From contig CM068831.1 of assembly GCA_028554795.2 (NCBI GenBank), positions 32,476,644 to 32,540,643 of the forward strand: a stretch of 64,000 nt of DNA, given 5' to 3'. Both the position numbers and the translations under genes were made by a program. This DNA is from Sinohyriopsis cumingii (lineage: Eukaryota; Mollusca; Bivalvia; Unionida; Unionidae). Shown piece after piece: positions 6,702-44,651 of the stretch (its first letter is position 1; every line of letters starts with the position of its first letter). The notes beneath the pieces were generated by a model that saw only the letters and a program-made list of their open reading frames with translations, did not search any database and was not told the DNA's origin.

Positions 6702-9293
6702 CCCTTAAAGTGCTAGTTGCGACATTAGTCATGCTGTTGGTCTAGGTCTCATAGTGCTTGTCGTGACTTAAGTCATTTTCCAGGTAAGCAACAATGTACA
6801 CATCCTATTACTTCAACTTGCCATGACTGCTTGTAAAACTACATTTGATTGGTTCATAGAGGCCCGAAACAAGCATTCTATTGTACTTTACTATGTATTT
6901 AGCAAAGAAGTTTTCTGAGCATGTGGTACCTGGAAAAAATGTAAATGGCTGATGCTGAATATGACAGTGATTTCTTGCAACAAATACTGACTTCTAATAG
7001 TGATGACATCAATGATTTTGAAGGATTTGAGGAGGATGAAATTACTGGAGCCGGTGAAGTGTTGATGAAAATACCCATGAGTGATTTTGAGCCAGGAATT
7101 TATGTGGAACTAGAGTTGGATGTGCATGTTGGCTGGACGAGAAAAGATGGCATGCCTGTCAACCCCCCATTCACTGGTACTTCAAAATTAAATGTTGAGA
7201 TGGTGAATACTGAATCTATTGACTATTTTAGACTTTTGTTTGATGACGAGTTATTGCATCTTATAGTAGATCAAACAAATCGTTAATACAGATCAGAGAG
7301 TTCCTGGGGCAGACTTGAAGGAGAACAATCGCGCAAAGAAATGGCAGCCTGTCACACCTGAGCAGCTAAAACTCTTTTTTCCAGTGATTATAGCAATGGG
7401 TTTGGTACATAAATCTGATCTCGATTCATACTGGGCTACTGATGATGTGATATCAACCCCATACTTCAGCAAAAAAATGAGTAGGGATAGATTTCTAGCC
7501 ATTTTAAGCAATTTACACCTGGCAGATAACGAGAAAATCAAGGTGACGCTTAACACAAGATCCACCCAATGATTGAAAATAACGAAGCATTTGCCGAGGT
7601 TTATTCACCAGATATGAACCTCAGTTTTGATGAGGCTACCTGCCCTTGGAAAGGTCATCTGAAATTTCGAGTTTATAACCCTGCCAAACCTAACAAGTTT
7701 GGCATAAATCTGTTCCAGGTGTGTGAGGCAAGCAGTGGATATCGTATTGGCTACTGCATTTATGCTGGTAAAACATGTGGAAACCTTGACAATTATTGTG
7801 AAGGACTAGAAATAAACACTGATGAGCTGAGTAAAACAACAAAAATTGTGACTGGTTTGCTCTGCAAGTGTAGTCTTTAGAATAAAGGACACAGAGTATG
7901 TATGGATAACTATTATTCATCACCTGAACTTTTTAAGGAACTTGAGTTGCTAAATACCTCTGCATGTGGAACCTTGCGAACTAAAAGAGGAGGTGTTGCA
8001 GAGGCAATGAAGGTAAAACAAAAACTAAACCATGGTAAGTATTTTTTGCAGAAAGGACAATTTGCTACTGGTGAAATATCATGACAAACGAGATGTAAAT
8101 ATGATCTCAAGTTTTCATAAAGCTAAGGTAGCAGTGATCAGTTAAACAAATTTTGCAACAAACACGCCTGTAATGAAACCCATATGTATTGTGGATTATA
8201 TGAGAAACATGAGAGGAGTAGATTTAAGTGACCAATTTAACCAATACAATCCTGTAGTAAGAAAATCCAAGAAATGGTGGAGAAAACTATTTTTTCATCT
8301 GTTGAATGTAGGTATTGTAAATGCCTATCAGTTGTACCTGAAATTCTCACCTATGCAGAAGAAACTAAGTCATCATGATTTATATGTTTCAGTAGTGAAG
8401 TCATTGGTTCAGAAGCAGGAGATGTGTCTGAACCTACTAAGAGAGGAAAAAAATTTGCTTTTGACCAACCCGAATGCCTCATTGGGAGGCATTTCCCTGA
8501 ATTTATTCCAGCTACACCTGGAGCTAAACAAGCACAACCTGCACATGATTGTGTTGCTTGTAATAAGAAAAGAAAGGACCATGAGGGATTCAAAAGAAAG
8601 CAAACATCTTTCAGATGTAAGACATGCCAAGTGGCACTTTGAGTACCTGATTGTTTCAGGTTATTCCACAAACGTGTAAATTACAAACAATATGAATGCA
8701 GTAGTTCAGATGAGTTAGAATAACACCTGAACAGGTAATAAACACAATGGGCGACTCTGTAAGCTCACAAGTTGACATGAGATAATGCAAATATATTAGA
8801 ATAAATAATAAGTTAAAAAAAATTCATGAACATTTACTACTGACTCTGGGGGTCTAAACTTACCTGTCACATTCATGGAGTTGATGTTTACAAAACTGTT
8901 ACCTTTTCTTTACCTGTGATTTTCACAATTTAGATATAACATAACATGTACATGAACATGGTTGAACTACTAAAGAATATAATATTTCTTATATATATTT
9001 GAACTTTTCCATTAAAAAACAAACAAAAATACAGATGAAAAACAATTACAACTTGTCTTTTTACCTGTAGTTGCACCTGTACATGCAAATATGTTAAACT
9101 TACACATGTGCCTTGATGCTAATCTTAAGGTTTAGGCATCCACCATCATTTTTCATAAAGGGGTTGTGTATCTATTGTGTATATTTATTAAAATGCACAT
9201 AATTTAAAAACTGTGCAGTTTTTTTCTTTCTTTTTCTCAAACAATTCAGCACTGAGGGATCTTGTACTGCAAAACAATATAGCACTTAAAGGG
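6702..9293 (+). mobile_element. piggyBac-superfamily transposon
   Basis: Flanked on both sides by TTAA (6,698-6,701 and 9,294-9,297), the piggyBac target. Terminal inverted repeats are CCCTTAAAGTGCTA at the left and CCCTTTAAGTGCTA (reverse complement) at the right, 13 of 14 identical. The 2.6-kb body holds one transposase pseudogene on the plus strand, leaving about 240 bp of left and 570 bp of right non-coding sequence. The insertion is in the centre of the foldback element at 6,335-9,644, so it is younger than that element. Confidence 0.88.
6945..8723 (+). pseudogene. piggyBac transposase, broken
   Basis: An acidic N terminus is followed by the DDE_Tnp_1_7 fold in pieces. A helical region (KKWQPVTPEQLKLFFPVII) comes first; the first catalytic Asp is in NLSFDEATCPWKG; the second in VCMDNYYSSPELF; the third in MRNMRGVDLSDQF followed by KWWRKLFFHLL. 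The C terminus has the cysteine-rich zinc domain (DCVACNKK…FRCKTCQVAL). Breaks: frameshifts near 7,285, 7,568, about 8,065 and 8,410; stops at 7,878, 8,141 and 8,639, where a Cys position of the zinc domain appears to have become TGA. Total length, about 590 codons, is normal for the family. Catalytic Asp residues are all still visible, so the loss is recent to moderate. No activity is possible as it stands. Confidence 0.88.
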
Positions 9294-28016: not shown

Positions 28017-28154
28017 AGCAGCAGGGCGGGCGAACCGGCTCTAATTGGTTCACCTGTATTTTCGCAAAATACAACTTCCCGGGGGATCGCAAAAATCGTT
28101 AAAAAAATGCGCGATTAAAAGTGACGAGTTGAGAGTGTCGCCCTCCCTGCTGCT
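28017..28154 (+). repeat. left terminal inverted repeat of the Polinton
   Basis: 138 bp, close to the reverse complement of 44,512-44,651. The repeat has its own inverted ends: AGCAGCAGGGCGGGCG outside and CGCCCTCCCTGCTGCT inside. Internal dyads include GTATTTTCGCAAAATAC (7-bp stem, 3-base loop) and GAACC…GGTTC. No ORF. Confidence 0.92.
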
Positions 28155-28374
28155 ATGAATTAAAATTTTTATCTAACCCGATTCGATACCATGTTCTAGG
28201 ATCAAATAACATAACAGGTTACAACTTTTCACAAGCACATCAAATACAGTAACATGATTATCTAAAAATAGCTGTGTGGATTCATATATGAAATATGGTA
28301 ATAACTAATTGATTATACACTAAAAAGTGAAAATATAGAAACTTCTTGTCGTAATAATTTTTATTTTTATTTTC

Positions 28375-29049
28375 TCAGTCCTCTATTTTCACATTTGAAA
28401 AATTAGTCAATCGTAAACTTGTGATTGTGAGAAAATTTATTGTTATAAATCCGTGTGAGGTTATTTTAGCACGACTAAAGAAATTTCTAAACTTATTTAT
28501 GTCCATATCACCACTACACCAGGTCTGATGAATATTTCGTAACGTGTGAGTATCAACTCCGTTAAAGACAGTAAGAGTATTACAGTTATCCCTGATCACT
28601 TTAGGAATTTGTGTATACCACTGGGTCACATAAATTACATCTGTGTTTTTGTGTCAGCCTCTGGAAAATATCCTAGCTGGATTTGATTGTTTATCCAACA
28701 TTACATCATCGTAAACAACTAAATTCTTAATTGGCCCATCGATATCATCAACATTCGGTGCTTCATTGATGTCAGTTATAAATTCAACAACATCATCTCC
28801 GTTTTCATTTAACGATTTTGCGCTTTCATTAAAGTCTTTTAACACTTCGTAGCAACGCTGATCGTCTACAGATGGAGCTACCAAATACACCGTATCCCAC
28901 TTCATCCACTTCATTATTAAATTAAGTAACAACTGCGTCTTACCACTTCCAGATGGACCAATGATAATCATTCGAATATAATTTGGTAACGCAGCTATAT
29001 GCTTAACTGGTTCTTGTTTTCTAGTAGCAGAAAAGTCAGTGATCTCCAT
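28375..29049 (-). pseudogene. A32-like DNA-packaging ATPase (one stop codon)
   Basis: About 224 codons in one frame, the usual size for the FtsK/HerA-type packaging ATPases of Polintons and nucleocytoplasmic viruses, which drive genome entry into the capsid. Walker A is IGPSGSGKTQ (about residues 30-39) and Walker B is LVVYDDVM (about residue 112). A sensor-like 'VIYVTQWYTQIPKVIRDN' follows the break. The only lesion is an in-frame TGA at about 28,651, in the position of an expected Arg (CGA to TGA is a typical CpG decay). The start ATG at 29,049 lies 20 bp from the divergent PLA2 gene start. It ends 220 bp from the left terminal repeat. Confidence 0.88.
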
Positions 29050-29069
29050 TAGAATAATATAAAACGAAT
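29050..29069. promoter_or_regulatory. 20-bp divergent start region
   Basis: Only 20 bases (AT-rich, with AATATAAAA) separate the ATPase ATG on the minus strand from the zinc-ribbon/PLA2 ATG on the plus strand. Transcription of the two genes must therefore start at or inside one another's 5' ends. Position is seen directly; promoter function is inferred. Confidence 0.35.
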
Positions 29070-29671
29070 ATGGATCTATATTGTGTTAAATGCAGGGCGC
29101 GCACGCCAACAATGATCTAACAACCATTACAACAAAAAAAACAATAGATCTGCGGTTACGGGCAAGTGTGAGCGATGCGGTACAAAGAAATTTAAATTTA
29201 TTTCCACTGACAAGTCAGGTGAAAAACCAAAACGAAAGTCAAAGCTAAAATCAAAACCAAAGTTAAAACCAAAAGCAAAGTCAAAGCCAAAGTCAAGTAC
29301 AAAAAAAGCAACACGGGGGTGACATCGCAGCAAAATTAACAAAACTACCTGGGACTCCGTGGGCTAAATACCCAGGAGAAAAACATCTTCCAGGATATAA
29401 TTACTGCGGCCCTGAAACCAGACTTGATATCAGGCTTGATGACCAAGATCAACCAAAACCAGGTGAGTATCCGATAAACGCTATTGATAAAGCGTGTCAT
29501 GCACATGATGTAGCTTATAAAAGTAAAAATCTACAAGATATGCATCTCGTGGATGTGAAATTAATTCACGCGTTAAATTCCATCACTGATAAATCTCTCA
29601 AGGAAAAATTAGCTAGTTGGTTAATAAAATCCGCAATGAAAGGTAAGTTAGCGTTAGGTGCTGGTAATTAA
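29070..29671 (+). pseudogene. zinc-ribbon and phospholipase A2-like virion protein
   Basis: N terminus: a zinc-ribbon of DUF5679 type, first pair CVKC and second pair CERCG followed by TKKFKF. Middle: a Lys/Ser-rich linker (KPKRKSKLKSK…). C terminus: a PLA2-like domain, with the calcium-loop motif YNYCGPET and the catalytic CHAHD with Tyr three residues on. Parvovirus VP1 and several Polinton-like viruses use such domains to breach the endosome, so a virion entry role is likely. Frameshifts: near 29,095, in an A-run near 29,135, and in a G-run near 29,323. The last lies exactly between linker and PLA2, so these might instead be two overlapping genes. The stop at 29,671 is 5 bp before the integrase ATG. 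Confidence 0.75.
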
Positions 29672-29676
29672 TTATA

Positions 29677-30640
29677 ATGGAGTCGATTTATTATTCCCAA
29701 AAAGGATACTGAGGGGTAGAGCAGGAATTAGTAAACTCGCTGAAGCAGCAAACGTTGCGCGCGATACTGCTAAAAATTGGTTAACCAAAGAGGCAGTATG
29801 CCAAATTTACTAACCACCGCCTAAACAATGTCACTTTGCACATTTTGATGTTAGTGTTCCTAATGTAGCTCATCAAGCTGATATACTATTTCTGCCACAT
29901 GATACTATTAAAATCCGAAGACGTCAAATTACATATAAATACGCGTTAACTGTAGTTGATGTTGCAAGTAGATACAAAGATGCGGAGCCGTTAACGACTA
30001 AAACAGCATCTGAGGTTGCTTCTGCTTTTGAACGAATTTATCAACGAGGACCTCTGCGATGGCCACAGTTGTTACAAGTTGATTCTGGCAAAGAATTTCA
30101 GGGTGCAGTATCATCGCTGATGAAGCAACATAATGTCACCATCAGACGAGGACATACTGCAATTCATCGTGACCAGGCAATTGTTGAGCGATTTAATCGA
30201 ACTCTTGCTGAGCGGTTATTTGGATATCAATACGCGAAGGAATTCATTCAAGACAAGAGATCACGCAAATGGGTCGCAAGTTTACCAAATGTGATAGCTG
30301 CATTAAATAATGAAATTACTCGAACAACCAACATGAAACCTAGAAACGCAATTACCAAAAGACATATACCACAATGACGTGATTTTTCAGCACAACCAAT
30401 ACTGGGCGATGTCACTGTGAGATATTAATATGAACCAGGTGAACTTGAAAAGGTTAAAAAAAAGAGCGACTGATCCTATCTCGAGCATCACTACACACAA
30501 TATATCTAACATAACCAGATCTACTGGTAGACCAGCAATCTCCAGACTGGATTCAGCTGCTCCTCAACGTGGATTCACACGTGAACAATTACAAGTAATT
30601 CCCGAAGACACACAATTACCGCCTAGATCACTTAACCAGC
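29677..30640 (+). pseudogene. retroviral-type integrase (c-integrase), broken
   Basis: The rve core is clear. First Asp in LTVVDVASRYKDAEPL, second in LLQVDSGKEFQG, Glu in QAIVERFNRTLAERL; the DDE triad is intact. Before it is a short helical region (EAANVARDTAKNWL) resembling the N-terminal DNA-binding helices. After it is a basic C terminus from 30,430, like the chromo/SH3-like tail of these enzymes. Breaks: a frameshift near 29,712, TAA at about 29,811, TGA at 30,375 and TAA at 30,425. Polinton integrases insert the linear genome via the terminal repeats, which fits the repeats and short target duplication here. Its end faces the HNH end of the polymerase gene tail to tail. Confidence 0.88.
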
Positions 30641-30649
30641 ACCCCTACG

Positions 30650-30859
30650 TCAGTTGCACTCGAGACAGGTCATCATCACATTCTCTGGTGTATGACCAAG
30701 ACGATTATTGTTTCTATCTACGGTGAATTGTCTTGAATGTTTATCCGAATACTGCCACAATATTATACAATTACAGCTTGCACAGTGATTATTCAGCTGT
30801 TGCTTCACTGTCATGATAAATTCAACATCAATGTCAAATTCTCGATTATTTTTTGTCAC
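30650..30859 (-). pseudogene. HNH nuclease module at the end of the polymerase-helicase gene
   Basis: A 65-70 residue zinc-binding HNH (endonuclease VII-like) domain: HCASCNCIILW, then FTVDRNNNRLGHTPENVMMT, then CLECN. Two Cys pairs and the D-R-x-N-N / G-H / N core are visible. Its frame overlaps the helicase C terminus and joins it through a six-A run (a one-base slip near 30,850), so it was probably the last domain of the same polypeptide. It ends in TGA directly after CLECN where an Arg would be expected (CGA to TGA). Confidence 0.72.
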
Positions 30860-32003
30860 TCTGTTTGTAACCAGTTAATTTTTTTCTTATTATATCACTG
30901 TTGTTTTCATTATTAATTTCATCAGCCATTGACTCATCCAAGACAATCCTTCGCAGTTGAGATATTCTTCTGATTCTGGACACAGCCAAGTAAACTAAGT
31001 TTGACCACTCGATACGATCATCAATAATCCAAACAACTGTATCAGAGATAGTCAGTCCTTGAGAAGAATGAATTGTCATTGCGTATCCTAGCGTCCACGG
31101 GGATTTATCGGCGCGCAGTGCATTTTCAGCAACATTGACATCAACTGCAACAACATCATTCAGCACAAGATTATGCTTCCTCCCTGACTGTCCTGGTATA
31201 TCAACGTCAATATTCTGTAACAGCGAATCAGCTGGTCTATAACACAATAGCACTGGCAGTGTTGGAAATTTTTTTCTTGTGTAATTGAAATAACTGCTGT
31301 TGAAGTGTGTCTCTGACTATCTTTCTACTTGCCACTATCAGATCGTTTGGTCTCCATGTTTTCCAAAAGTCGTTCAAAGAAGTTTCTGAAATCACCTTAC
31401 GTATTTTTTCACATTGAATTTTATTCGGTTGTAGTCTGATTAATGTTTTAAATTCCTTTAATTCTGCATCAAGAGATCTGTGATCATCAGTCACTACTTC
31501 GTAATAATCAACAAAATTATTGAACCAATCGTGTGGGGATGGTCCAGCAAACGGAGGTGGCTGACCGGATCGCCGCAAATAACCACTGCAGTATTTTTTG
31601 TTAATAACCAATCGAGAAATGTTTTTAATGTTTCTAACGGTACCGTACATATTTCATCCCAAATTATAACTTTTGGAATATATTTCTCTCCCATTCGATC
31701 TGGAGTCCACACACCACCGCTGTATTTGAAAAAGCTGTGATAAGTACAATAATTAACTCCTCGTTGTTTCATCTCCCTGGCAAGTCTGTGTGTTGGTGTT
31801 AGTACAATCATATCTGTATTCTGTCGAAATAATTCGATCACTCGAGTTGTCTGACCAGAACCTCCCGGTCCGTTCAAATAAACGGTTTTGTGTCTGGATA
31901 CTGGATCATACACAGATGGTGCATTCGACATTTCTGATAATTCTGATTTACAATAACTATCTTTAACCACAACATCAGCGGATTCACAATAACAATGTAA
32001 CAT
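30846..32003 (-). pseudogene. superfamily-1 (RecD/Pif1-like) DNA helicase module
   Basis: Walker A region LNGPGGSGQTTRVIELF, with Gln in place of the catalytic Lys. Motif Ia LTPTHRLAREM, Walker B VIIWDEI, motif III VICGDP, and the UvrD/RecD C-terminal box GYAMTIHSSQGLTI with LVYLAVSR. Order and spacing are those of a complete SF1 helicase of about 390 residues. Frameshifts near 31,560 and 31,245 split it into three ORFs. The upstream ATG (32,003) follows a TAA that is in frame with the polymerase C terminus. So it is either a separate gene starting at TAA-ATG or, as judged from the continuity, the middle part of a polymerase-helicase-HNH fusion. Confidence 0.78.
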
Positions 32004-34057
32004 TTACTTTTTTATTCTCCAGGAACTCCATGATTCATCATTGCTTGTGAAACGATCCAGTAATTCTGAATATTTTTTATCGATATAAAATGAATCCGTA
32101 GCAACTCTAACTCCAGTGTCAGGAAATCTATTTATCATCGGTAGCAAATTTATAGAAACTTAAGCAAGCATCGAAGATCTTAAATGTGTGTACTGAGGTG
32201 ATTCTCCATTGATGCAACTAACAATTGTTCCCAACCGTGTTCCGTCAGACAAGTAAGCATCTTCCCGATTACAAAGGATATTTCTCGTAGTGGCATCATT
32301 GATTATAATATCTAATTCAACATCATCCATAATCAATAGTGAGTGATGTCGTTTATGATCATATGCACCACCCTGAGTAAATTTACCAATTATTCTTCTA
32401 CCAAGATCTTTTGCGTTTTTTTCGTTGTTGTTGAGTTTAATCTTAAGAATATTATAAGCATCATTAACAATGACATCCGCGGACAGGTCCGGTTGTTCCC
32501 GCGAATATTCTTCGATGACTTCATCGATACTGATACGCTCCGGTGTTGGTAACCAAACCGAAGTCTGCGGCCGATATGATATAATTGCTTCACTGACCGT
32601 CAACGATATCAATATTTTACTGTCAAGTATATATCGTAATAACACTATTGGCGCCCAAAGTTTCTCCAAAAAATGTCTGCCAAACCAAACATAACAAATC
32701 GGATGAAGATTCATAGCGAATTCAAACGACACTACACGAGCAAATCCTGTCAGATCAAAATCGGGTAATGGACCATTAATTGATACTCTTACCATCTCAT
32801 GACAAGGATGACCAAATCTTTAAAAATATCCAGCACACTCGCCATCCCAAGAAAACTTCCGGGATAACACGAGGTCATGTCTACGGAAATCATCTCGCCG
32901 ATATTATACTCGGTGTTCCACAAACCGCCGTGTCCGTATTCGTTACAGCTATCCTGGACATCTTCAAGGAACTCAGCGTGTGTTGGTCTCCATTAATTTC
33001 TCTCTCTCGCGGCGTGGGCAGCAACTGACAGAACTGTAAAACAATTGGTTAATAACTGCTCCGTATTTGCTGAGTATCTCTGTGCGAGTTTTCTCATTTC
33101 TTCGTGGAGAGATTCTGTACGATATAATTCGCCGTTAGGTCTTACAAATTGATCATACTCGCTATTTTCGGAACTTTTAAACAACCACACTGACACAGAG
33201 TCGTTTTTGCTTATCCGGCTGATAGCATCGAACATTCCATCCCAAAAACTCTCTGACGAGTAATATCTCACAACACGATCCCGTGGAAATATTGTTATCG
33301 CGGAGGTATAAGCGTGAGCGTTATGGTCAATAATCTCAGTTGATTTGTATAAAACCTCCCCCATTAACGTTTTTACCATCATTGGAAATTTTAATTTACT
33401 TGATAACTCAGCGACATCGTTTATTGACGCTCCTGTATCCTTAACCGATTAAGCCCATTTGTTTATTTTTTCACGTCGCAGATCAGTTAAACCGTTTCAA
33501 CGCTGCGCATTTTCAAAATATTCCATTACTCGCTCGGCTACACAATTCAGCTTTGTAAATCTCATCGGGGTAAGATCATTAATGTTAGGTCTATCATTTA
33601 GCTGATAGATTCCATAAATGACCGCTGTTACAGGATACGCTCGAGCGTAATATGGTTTATGAATCCCAGTCAACATTCCTGATTTGGAATCTTTACTTAA
33701 CAGAGCGGTTTTTCTATTAGCAAGGACAGGGTCACGTTTGTCACGGATAATCCACGTATTGGAATCTGCTTGCACAATAAACTTTACTCTGAAATGATAT
33801 TTCTGATTGAGGTAATCAATGATTGTTTTCGCTCGTGCATCACTCATTATAGCGTCCTTGAGATCGTCGTCGTGTATAATTTTGAATGTAGACCACACAT
33901 AAGATGCTCCATCATTACGAAATTAGTCTTTGGCATCTCTAATAATATCAAACAGACCAGTCAGGGCTTGCCTCCGCGAATCAGGGGTTAGTCTGTCAAG
34001 ATCAAATCTAGAAGCTTTCCGGGGCTTGATTTTGGATAATCTTTCAAACTCCTCCAT
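32004..34057 (-). pseudogene. family-B DNA polymerase, divergent (Polinton replicase)
   Basis: Start ATG at 34,057 (MEEFERLSKIKPRKASRFDL). N-terminal and exonuclease-side sequence runs in four ORFs to about 32,990. Polymerase motif A reads VDMTSCYPGSF (32,842-32,888), the D-x-x-S-x-Y-P signature. A Lys-containing 'RRIIGKFTQGGAY' (about 32,380) stands where motif B is expected. Motif C reads RVATDSFYID (32,080-32,112), with ATDS in place of DTDS. Breaks: near 33,910, 33,450-33,500, 33,000 and 32,800, plus a TAA at about 32,160. The sequence is unlike the classical Polinton polymerase remnant at 20,860. The frame runs straight into the helicase module through one TAA at about 32,004. Confidence 0.75.
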
Positions 34058-34424: not shown

Positions 34425-34837
34425 ATGAATCAGGAATTTGTCCGACACCCCATCATCAGGAATTACGAAGCGAATCGTAAAGGTGATATTAGAAATTGTA
34501 TTTTAAAAAAACAGTTGGTACTGTTAATAATACTTGTTATCTAAAGTTGAGAGTTGGAAATAAAAACTATTATAATCATCGATTTGTATTCGAGATTTTT
34601 TACGGAGAGATCGAAGACGGTCTTGCGATCGATCACGTTGACAAAAATAAACTTAATAACTCTCCTCAAAATTTACAAGCCATCACACAGAGCGAAAATT
34701 CTGCAGGAGGGGGTACTGGTAAATTTAAGAGCGTTACAAGGAAAGTTGTCAGATCTTTCAACATAAGTACCCGTGAAGAGAAAATATTTAAGTCAATGTA
34801 CGCGGCTGGCAAGCATTTCGGTATTCACCCGAGGTAA
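34425..34837 (+). pseudogene. HNH endonuclease with NUMOD-like ends
   Basis: N terminus 'YEANRKGDIRN' resembles a NUMOD4-type segment. The core RFVFEIFYGEI…IDHVDKNKLNNSPQNLQAI is the classic HNH of phage and giant-virus group-I-intron-type nucleases. The C terminus 'MYAAGKHFGIHPR' resembles a NUMOD1 helix. A frameshift in an A-run near 34,505 separates the ATG at 34,425 from the core, and the ORF ends early at TAA 34,837. It is a second, unrelated HNH protein in the same element, so it may be a passenger selfish nuclease rather than part of replication. Confidence 0.72.
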
Positions 34838-40288: not shown

Positions 40289-40729
40289 TTAAAATCGATC
40301 CGCGGTATACTCGTGCACGACTTTGTGAGGCGGTTTGGTTGATTTTGATATCGCGTAAAGAACATTTAATACTTCACGGCCACATATTGGTGGCTCGGTT
40401 AGTGTTTGTGTTGGTAAAGTTGAATACCAGACTGGAATGGGGACTGGAGAACTTCGTGCGTATTTGAGGAATTCAACTGGCGGTGCTAACCCATACGAAT
40501 CGAAATAGACATTTCCACGTGGATCGATCGCGTAAGCAACCCAGTGAGTTCCTGTGCCATCACTGTTATCGAGATTAATAATTCCAGTTTCTGGATTATG
40601 TAGTTGTTGTGGTAATTGATATCGCATAAAAACACCTCTAAATGTTTTTATTTTAAGTTGTTTCGCAGCATCGAGCAAATCAAAATTTGACATCGGTGTG
40701 TGCAATACTTCATATTGTGTTAAAACCAT
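40289..40729 (-). CDS. adenain-like cysteine protease (virion maturation)
   Basis: ATG at 40,729 (MVLTQYEVLHT) is chosen because the ORF's longer form reads through the end of the upstream gene. The frame is intact for 146 residues. Catalytic features in order: His in GTGTHWVAYAI, acidic residue in YFDSYG, Gln in LPTQTL and Cys in ICGREVLNVLY, the H-D/E-Q-C layout of the C5 (adenain) family that cuts capsid precursors. The length is typical of the short Polinton protease. Its first 10 bases overlap the stop of the pVI/pX-like gene. Together with the intact 289-residue gene it is one of the few unbroken frames. Confidence 0.85.
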   Translation of the reverse strand: MVLTQYEVLHTPMSNFDLLDAAKQLKIKTFRGVFMRYQLPQQLHNPETGIINLDNSDGTGTHWVAYAIDPRGNVYFDSYGLAPPVEFLKYARSSPVPIPVWYSTLPTQTLTEPPICGREVLNVLYAISKSTKPPHKVVHEYTADRF

Positions 40730-41132
40730 TTTGGGTACCACGCAGGCGGAGTTCCTGGAAGTCTTAGACCACGTCCTTTTTATATTCTTTTCCAGTTGCT
40801 TTCTTTAATGCCATTCTGGCAGCTGTCTCAACAGCTCCTAACGCGGCTGCTTTTGCGACATCTGGGGCAGCAGCAGCTATCAGCGCTGGTATTGCTGCGA
40901 GAAGTGGAAATATTCCACCGGTTTTAACCATATCCTTGATAGCTTTGAGAGCAAAATCAAGCTGAACTCCGGCTTTCGCTTGCTTTGCTTTATTGAAATG
41001 TTTGAGTTCGGTTTTAGTCAGCGATAACTTATTTGGACCGCCACTAGCAATTTCATCATTTTTTAGTGTTATCGTTGCCCCCCACACACTCGCGTTTTTG
41101 GATTGTAATTTCTTTATCTGACCAGAGGTCAA
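40720..41132 (-). pseudogene. pVI/pX-like amphipathic virion protein
   Basis: Begins near 'TSGQIKKLQSKNASVWGATI' without a clear ATG; the open frame extends upstream past 41,150. The second half has a Gly/Ala-rich hydrophobic segment (GGIFPLLAAIPALIAAAAPD) followed by a helical Ala-rich stretch, as in membrane-active minor proteins of adenovirus and adintoviruses. A one-base slip near 40,770 moves the true C terminus into another frame ending PGTPPAWYPKWF, with the stop at 40,720 overlapping the protease start. A conserved-looking, aromatic C terminus just before the protease suggests it is a protease target or packaging tail. Confidence 0.6.
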
Positions 41133-41205: not shown

Positions 41206-42610
41206 CTACATGTTTTCCCCTGGTGCATCAATGATTCTCATTCGGCCACTAATACCTTCAAGTAACATTGCCTTATCACTGAGTATAACAGCAATTGCTC
41301 TGCAAGGACCATAAACAATTGGCGGACCATCCGCGACTTTTGGTAATGTACCAACACGAGCTCGGAAATGGATATCAACAACAGACTGTTTGGATAAATC
41401 AAGATGCTCCAGCGAAAAGTAATAAATCGGATACAACTTTGTAAAATCAAGCTGTGATATTTGCGTACCATGATCTATATTTGTGTTACGCGACAAGAAT
41501 GTCAGCCAGCGATGATATGCGCGCGCCACATGATTATTTGTAAAACTTAATGATATATCTTCGGATGGTTCTTGTTGTCCGTTTATTCTCAACGAAACCT
41601 CGGTAACGTCAAGTTTGTCAAAGACCATTCCTGATTATTCACCCGACGAATATCTTGCAACGCAATAAAAATATGTCGTGGCGCAGAAACACCTTGTTGC
41701 GATGCTATATGCCAAGTAAATACATCTCTGACGGAACTTTGGATGGCGTCTGTGGTTACTGTTAACAACGATAGCAATAATTTACCACTTTGATTCATAA
41801 AAGAGTAATCGCGGTTCTTCCGTGACTGATGGAGTTAATACCGGCATCCACAGTGAGAGATTTGTTATTTCTACTTTGCCGACATGGCCAGCTCTTCGCC
41901 AAATCGCATCATTGTCGTCGTTTTTTCTGTAAAGCACAACTGTGTGTTTAGCTCCAAAGATGACGTTTCTAAAGTCCCTGCAAACTCCAAAGATGTGAGT
42001 TAGTGGAATCTTCTCCTGACAACATTGCTCTGCGTGTTGCAAATCCTAAGTTGTAAGTCGCGCTAGCATCTTTTATAATATCAAAATCAGCACCTGGTCT
42101 AACTTCATGTTCAAAGTCAGCTGGTTGTGGTTTGCTTGCAGTATTTTGTGGTGTTCGCAACTTAATATATTGAAGATGATCGGCGTTGTCGGTAATATCT
42201 TTAGCAAACATCATTGATGGACCAGCCGATTTTGTAAAGTCGTCAGAATATCTTGCTAGACCAATTAATGTTGCAGCAACATCGACATCATTCTGAATCG
42301 ACTCGATATTTTTTCCATCAATCATGTAGGTGGCGGTACTAAACAATGCCATGATCCCGTTGTTGACAAACCCAACTCGGTCATTGACACCATAGTTATT
42401 ATTATCCGCCCTTACGAGTTTACCTTCTACTTCAATAAGCGCCTTACAAGGCAGAAAATATCTACTTGTATCATGAACTTGAAGTTCGATAAGCCCTCGT
42501 TGATTTGGTTCTTTTGCATCATAGGAATAAAATTGATAATCACGCACTGTGTAATCTCGCTCGACCGGCTCATCTATGTTAAATGCTGGGTCGGATATGC
42601 GTTTGAACAT
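41206..42610 (-). pseudogene. major capsid protein, double jelly-roll (hexon-like)
   Basis: Start MFKRISDPAFNIDEP at 42,610. About 465 codons, typical for Polinton major capsid proteins. The N-terminal jelly roll is well preserved: RGLIELQVHDTSRYFLPCKA, then VGFVNNGIMALFSTATYMID, then DVDVAATLIGLARYSDDF. The second half continues in three other frames with frameshifts near 42,010, 41,790 and 41,610, ending 'YGPCRAIAVILSDKAMLLEG' and a short tail to TAG at 41,206. It would form the icosahedral shell. Identification comes from the N-terminal pattern, size and position among protease, minor capsid and ATPase genes. Confidence 0.78.
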
Positions 42611-42642
42611 TTTATACCATTGCGTATTTTTTCAAATGGTGA

Positions 42643-44484: not shown

Positions 44485-44511
44485 TATTTGGTATAGCAAT
44501 TTTTAATTCAT

Positions 44512-44651
44512 AGCAACAGGGAGGGCGACGCTCTCAACGCGTCACTGATAATCGCGCATTTTTTTAAAACGATTTTTGCGATCCCTCAGGAGGTCCTATT
44601 TTGCGAACATACAGGTAAACCAATTAGAACCGGTTCGCCCTCCCTGCTGCT
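44512..44651 (-). repeat. right terminal inverted repeat of the Polinton
   Basis: 140 bp, the inverted counterpart of 28,017-28,154, with scattered substitutions and short indels (near 'cgactct' and 'ccccgggaag' of the left copy). Like the left copy it has self-complementary ends: AGCAACAGGGAGGGCG inside and CGCCCTCCCTGCTGCT outside. Confidence 0.92.

Follow-up and report, generated by a model that had tools for sequence, protein, structure and literature searches.

Fusions of a protein-primed family B DNA polymerase (pPolB) with a superfamily 1 (SF1) helicase, termed pPolB-S1H, were reportedly defined by Krupovic, Yutin and Koonin in 2016. The passages on Tlr1-like helicases in the preprint PMC11071308 describe these proteins as TP-vOTU-palm-S1H fusions that have neither an exonuclease nor the first Asp of polymerase motif C, some of which end in a C-terminal HNH or GIY-YIG domain. 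Other arrangements appear in the relevant parts of two further papers, namely an SF1 helicase fused N-terminal to a pPolB that keeps its exonuclease in OmPLV of Oxyrrhis marina (PMC12721341), and an SF1 helicase with a C-terminal GIY-YIG domain in Cryptomonas polinton-like viruses (PLVs), with N-terminal HNH-helicase fusions in others (PMC12220804). Here we analysed a window, that is, the whole stretch of 64,000 nucleotides examined, from the unionid bivalve Sinohyriopsis cumingii (assembly GCA_028554795.2, contig CM068831.1, positions 32,476,644 to 32,540,643), which holds a decayed 16.6-kb Polinton-like element bounded by terminal inverted repeats. The broken replicase gene of this integrase-bearing, amplified element is very probably a decayed Tlr1-like fused replicase, in which a PolB palm of putatively protein-primed type is joined to an SF1 helicase and an HNH nuclease.

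Judged by its published description, the Tlr1-like helicase of Tetrahymena Tlr1, PLVs and transpovirons shares with this replicase the order of palm and then SF1 helicase, a motif C without the first Asp, the lack of room for an exonuclease, conserved upstream Cys and His residues in a putative OTU-like part and a C-terminal HNH (or GIY-YIG) domain, and Tlr1 likewise has an rve integrase in the element. What differs is the setting, namely a 2.9-Gb genome, a high copy number, molluscan-type relatives and the presence of canonical-type pPolB genes beside it, as well as a weak protease candidate in the element, whereas Tlr is said to be without a protease in the portion of PMC4028283 that treats it. 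Canonical Polinton/Maverick elements have in common with ours the terminal repeats, a short target duplication, an rve integrase, an A32 ATPase and a double-jelly-roll capsid protein; however, their pPolB stands alone and carries an exonuclease, whereas the replicase described here is fused and gave no PF03175 match. The OmPLV protein also joins an SF1 helicase to a pPolB, but there the helicase is N-terminal and an exonuclease is present, whereas here the helicase follows the palm. The initial annotation of the window had proposed a different replication module; the replicase is indeed unlike the stand-alone pPolB of textbook Polintons, but the module itself is already known as the Tlr1-like helicase fusion treated in the cited passages of PMC11071308. 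The wider host range and the high copy number are the new part, and in the open-access literature we found no report of a pPolB-S1H fusion from animals or fungi.

The intact relative P0001 is a single polypeptide of 1176 residues, close to the product of about 1,100 residues expected of an intact copy, in which an OTU-like N-terminal part is followed by a PolB-type palm with the motif C ATDS, a Pif1/RecD-like SF1 helicase and an HNH domain. Its residues 3-1172 align with the window in five pieces at 60-74% identity per piece, which run from the N-terminal part through the OTU-like part, the palm and the SF1 helicase to the HNH (Table 1). Since P0001 aligns almost end to end and the Pfam score of the first SF1 piece exceeds the cut-off, the motifs in the window are not due to chance, and motif A, motif C, the helicase and the HNH domain, which the initial annotation had placed on one strand, were all located on the minus strand. 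The OTU-like part of the window copy retains the conserved Cys and His, and its HNH residues fall within 30653-30874; a UvrD_C_2 match of the helicase (E 0.0014) and a Pfam HNH match of P0001 (E 0.08) stayed under the cut-off. To read through the five pieces, the frame must change four times: motif A is separated in this way from the remainder of the palm, two changes fall within the helicase, and another sits where helicase and HNH meet. Nine in-frame stops were counted in the pieces, some of which may fall in overlaps past frame changes. Only part of the earlier picture of a polymerase and a helicase sharing one frame broken by a single TAA stands: the TAA at 32004-32006 exists, but a second one lies in the frame that runs from motif B to Walker A, motif A is in a different frame and the helicase shifts frame twice. 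The frame offset between helicase and HNH at the A-run was confirmed. The window copy of the replicase is almost certainly dead, and the TAA at 32004-32006, at whose site 12 of the 12 other genome copies examined have a sense codon, and the slip in the A-run look like decay rather than design.

Table 1. Features of the decayed element and of its replicase gene, in coordinates of the window
Feature	Position	Strand	Evidence or remark
Whole broken replicase gene	30635..34048	-	tblastn of P0001 residues 3-1172, five pieces
N-terminal region with conserved Cys/His of OTU-like part, ends at motif A	32822..34048	-	P0001 3-427
PolB motif A, DMTSCYP	32861-32881	-	
Palm with motif B-like IIGKFTQG and motif C ATDS	32007..32819	-	
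Motif C, ATDS	32091-32102	-	
TAA between motif B and motif C	32160-32162	-	
TAA between palm (motif C) and helicase (Walker A)	32004..32006	-	particular to window copy among those examined
SF1 (Pif1/RecD-like) helicase, three pieces, two frames	30849..32003	-	AAA_19 E 5e-9, above cut-off
Walker A-like motif	31845-31871	-	invariant lysine lost in window copy
A-run at helicase-HNH junction	30849..30854	-	
HNH nuclease domain	30635..30874	-	PHROG endonuclease phrog_3322 E 5.9e-8; P0001 1100-1172
Left terminal inverted repeat	28017..28168	+	starts AGCAGCAGGG
Right terminal inverted repeat	44498..44651	-	90.1% identity to left repeat over 152 aligned positions
Packaging ATPase (A32-like), N-terminal piece	28657..29085	-	Pfam Pox_A32 E 5.7e-7, above cut-off
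Integrase remnant, C-terminal part	30069..30377	+	same sequence family as 260-aa ORF L031:1556-2338
Separate free-standing HNH_3 endonuclease gene	34496..34837	+	Pfam HNH_3 E 7e-16, above cut-off
Adenain/Ulp1-like protease candidate	40292..40804	-	weak Pfam Peptidase_C5 E 0.0045, under cut-off
Likely double-jelly-roll capsid gene, in pieces	41209..42631	-	resembles ORF L032:4100-4759

A search for relatives with the first SF1 piece as query found 49 proteins among 212 candidates, of which 24, hand-chosen among the long ones, were aligned (alignment A1); such searches favour proteins in the given length range, which is a bias. The motif A Asp, the motif B Lys, the Ala, Asp and Ser of motif C, the Walker Lys and the D-E of motif II are present in 24 of the 24 rows, and the motif C Thr and the motif VI Arg in 23 each. 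Palm, helicase and HNH follow one another in this order, with the HNH ligands present, in 22 rows, the other two (P0002 and P0003) stopping before the HNH domain.

Many copies of the same gene are present in the 2.90-Gb genome, where a search with the helicase C-terminal piece gave no fewer than 150 strong matches, among them that of the window itself, all at E <=1.5e-73 (150 scored of 18,668 first-look candidates). Twelve copies were fetched, picked for long open frames and not as a random sample. Open frames of 1138 codons over P0001 residues 3-1100, 1012 over 151-1172, 924 over 161-1092, 915 over 160-1100 and 752 over 385-1172 were found; some single frames hold palm and helicase, and others hold palm, helicase and HNH. 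Separate genes for palm and helicase are refuted by open frames of such length, up to 1138 codons. The helicase-HNH junction could be read in 58 copies (59 loci were given, one of them uncovered), some of which are mutual duplicates and not independent: it is in frame in 21 and shifted by -1 in 7, by +1 in 21, by +2 in 8 and by -2 in 1.

One may ask, given the different frames of the parts in the window and a junction that is in frame in just those 21 of 58 other copies, whether polymerase, helicase and HNH are three adjacent genes, each with a start and a stop of its own, whose joining is only apparent. We consider this extremely improbable, because in relatives a single open reading frame (ORF) runs across the two junctions (22 of 24 with HNH, in a search that favoured long proteins), because L012, L015, L021 and L022 hold helicase and HNH in one frame, and because the junction run shifts in both directions. 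Relatives in which the three parts are always separate genes were not observed, and the earlier proposal of one joined replicase agrees with what relatives and same-genome copies encode, namely palm, helicase and HNH in a single polypeptide or frame.

The A-run is a slippage spot between helicase and HNH, and its slip in the window copy says little about design, since the spread of frames is close to that of random homopolymer drift in dead copies. In 46 of 58 copies the junction holds at least six A without interruption, and several frames are common, which could nevertheless suggest that slippage controls the expression of the HNH domain. Such a role is very unlikely, as the in-frame fraction is about that expected from random drift and as P0005, P0010 and others are in frame with a different junction peptide, which, judged from the protein sequences, makes a long A-run unlikely in these relatives. 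L042, L051, L052, L053, L060 and L069 have an identical interrupted junction run, and L055 a nearly identical one; the shared run of the six suggests the duplication of an already broken copy.

Selection was compared among 13 copies, for which the median ratio of nonsynonymous to synonymous substitution rates (dN/dS) over 78 pairs was 0.35 for the N-terminal part, 0.32 for the OTU-like part and 0.23 for both palm and helicase, and over 66 pairs 0.23 for HNH; the ranges are wide (0.08-1.33 for HNH and 0.18-1.06 for the OTU-like part), decay after insertion pulls the values toward 1, individual copies enter several pairs, and stretches with shifted frames contribute noise. Because their dN/dS values are equal, the comparison argues that palm, helicase and HNH would all have been in use while the elements were mobile.

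The palm was not recognized by sequence, as scans of the window pieces and of P0001 gave no Pfam or PDB match to a polymerase. Structure prediction, which had been called for by the initial annotation, was run on the whole of P0001, and the resulting model (predicted local distance difference test score, pLDDT, 70.7) matched Pif1 in the PDB at E 1.3e-11 and phi29 polymerase at E 1.1e-5. Compared with viral models, it matched the PolB of mavirus (E 1.8e-9) and also a densovirus PolB, the best viral structure match being H6WBE3 (E 1.3e-22, 1123 columns). Since P0001 gave no PF03175 match at E up to 1 and only about 146 residues separate His261 from the motif A Asp408, an exonuclease domain is absent. 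According to an older reading of the Tlr1-like fusion, the protein is a helicase bearing the relic of a dead polymerase, and the first Asp of motif C is indeed replaced, by Ala in 24 of 24 rows of A1 and, in a second alignment of 15 proteins (A3, 8 rows common to A1), by Ala in 14 and Thr in one. However, the palm is as constrained as the helicase in the dN/dS comparison, the motif A Asp and the second motif C Asp are kept in every row counted, and active polymerases without the first Asp exist, as listed in the corresponding passage of PMC11071308, so we regard a dead palm as unlikely.

The place of the HNH domain is less clear-cut. It might be a homing passenger joined by chance and lie outside the replicase proper, to which we attribute a sizeable though minority chance: the text of PMC11071308 on such nuclease domains ascribes them to intein or homing invasions, a stand-alone HNH_3 gene is also present in the element, and some cryptophyte PLVs have an HNH domain at the opposite end of the helicase, as mentioned in part of PMC12220804. 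Against this stand the same C-terminal position of HNH in molluscan-type and fungal relatives (22 of 24 rows in A1 and, depending on the residue, 11-14 of 15 in A3) and a median dN/dS that resembles that of the helicase.

When the search was widened with a profile, 284 of the 7988 proteins scored were retained, and the source names among the 120 matches listed include Elysia, Sinanodonta and the coral Desmophyllum as well as the fungi (Glomeromycotina) Cetraspora, Racocetra, Diversispora and Rhizophagus; Potamilus is a further named source of relatives. Two of the long fungal fusions differ in extent, P0082 being without the N-terminal part and extending through HNH, and P0083 terminating within HNH. 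A tree built from 32 proteins gave support of 100/100 to the group of P0001, which includes Sinanodonta, of 92/96 to Elysia-Desmophyllum and of 100/100 to Glomeromycotina, with unsupported deep forks among the three (39/45) and with a Sinanodonta row that fills 38% and a Desmophyllum row that fills 28% of the columns. Horizontal transfer is possible. Genes for fused replicases, L002 among them, also occur in assemblies of the symbiont Candidatus Thiodiazotropha and in records of Diapherotrites archaeal metagenome-assembled genomes; these records probably carry misbinned DNA of the host or of environmental eukaryotes.

The fused replicase shares the genome with canonical-type pPolB genes. A scan with PF03175 gave at least 150 matches in 75 scored of 21,499 candidates, all above the cut-off; the open frames are 648-1363 codons long, and both the exonuclease and the polymerase halves of the model match. 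The pPolB of L075 is a stand-alone gene of 1334 codons whose motif A reads DVCSLYP and whose motif C reads YFDTDS, and the ORFs of L075 show no polymerase similarity to P0001 beyond chance (best E 0.95). Most of the canonical-type frames are without stops in the matched part, for which reason the canonical-type Polinton lineage is perhaps younger than that of the fused replicase.

The terminal repeats of the window element are about 154 bp long, and the element end recurs across the genome in 40 of 40 scored matches (of 774 first-look candidates, the window's own counted in), 39 of which span query bases 1-90 and one 1-89. Four other elements of 13.0-16.2 kb, hand-picked from the end matches for having both ends within 17 kb, all show 5-bp target duplications, one of them little informative as it sits in a GA repeat, and in the window copy four of the five flanking bases match. 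Left and right repeats are 93.2-97.3% identical within the four others, and the lower identity within the window copy suggests that it is the oldest of the five.

Genes of another copy (L031 and L032) comprise an rve integrase, HNH_3, a double-jelly-roll domain and a weak adenain-like protease match. The ORF L031:1556-2338 matches rve at E 2.3e-6, under Pfam's own cut-off, and the window integrase piece on its own gave no rve match in the Pfam scan. Similarly, ORF L032:4100-4759, which resembles the window pieces at 41209-41834, matches DJR-like_dom above the cut-off (E 1.9e-7); the window piece 41206-41628 reaches just E 0.1, and the piece 41969-42610 gave no Pfam match. The free-standing HNH_3 gene adjoins the replicase, with a related ORF at L031:6512-6967, and an ORF at L031:917-1549 (plus strand), beside the integrase, combines DUF5679 and phospholipase A2-like domains. 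Outside the element, two pieces at 7569-8679 (plus strand) match DDE_Tnp_1_7, which we take to be a piggyBac-type transposase.

Together, these data suggest how a Tlr1-like fused replicase might work. The linear DNA of the element would be copied from protein-primed ends, with the OTU-like part freeing the priming part, the palm extending and the fused helicase opening the duplex; the HNH domain would nick or cut replication intermediates, and the integrase would insert the product. The exonuclease-bearing canonical pPolB would open the duplex without a fused helicase. Here we speculate, with considerable reservation, that a Polinton-like branch of animals and mycorrhizal fungi, amplified in one genome next to canonical pPolB Polintons, might use an all-in-one replicase as a second system parallel to theirs, with a palm that is active in spite of the altered motif C and an HNH domain that serves the replication cycle and is no homing passenger. 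Because the Pfam PolB model matched neither the window pieces nor any protein scanned here, annotation by this model alone likely misses the lineage. The present study extends a replicase known from elements of protists and from those associated with giant viruses to elements that have mollusc, coral and Glomeromycotina relatives, and what is new is its many copies beside canonical-type pPolB genes, these relatives and a purifying selection that is similar for palm, helicase and HNH. With so many natural copies, two questions become open to comparison, namely whether a palm that lacks the first Asp of motif C is active and whether the C-terminal HNH domain is part of the replication machinery.
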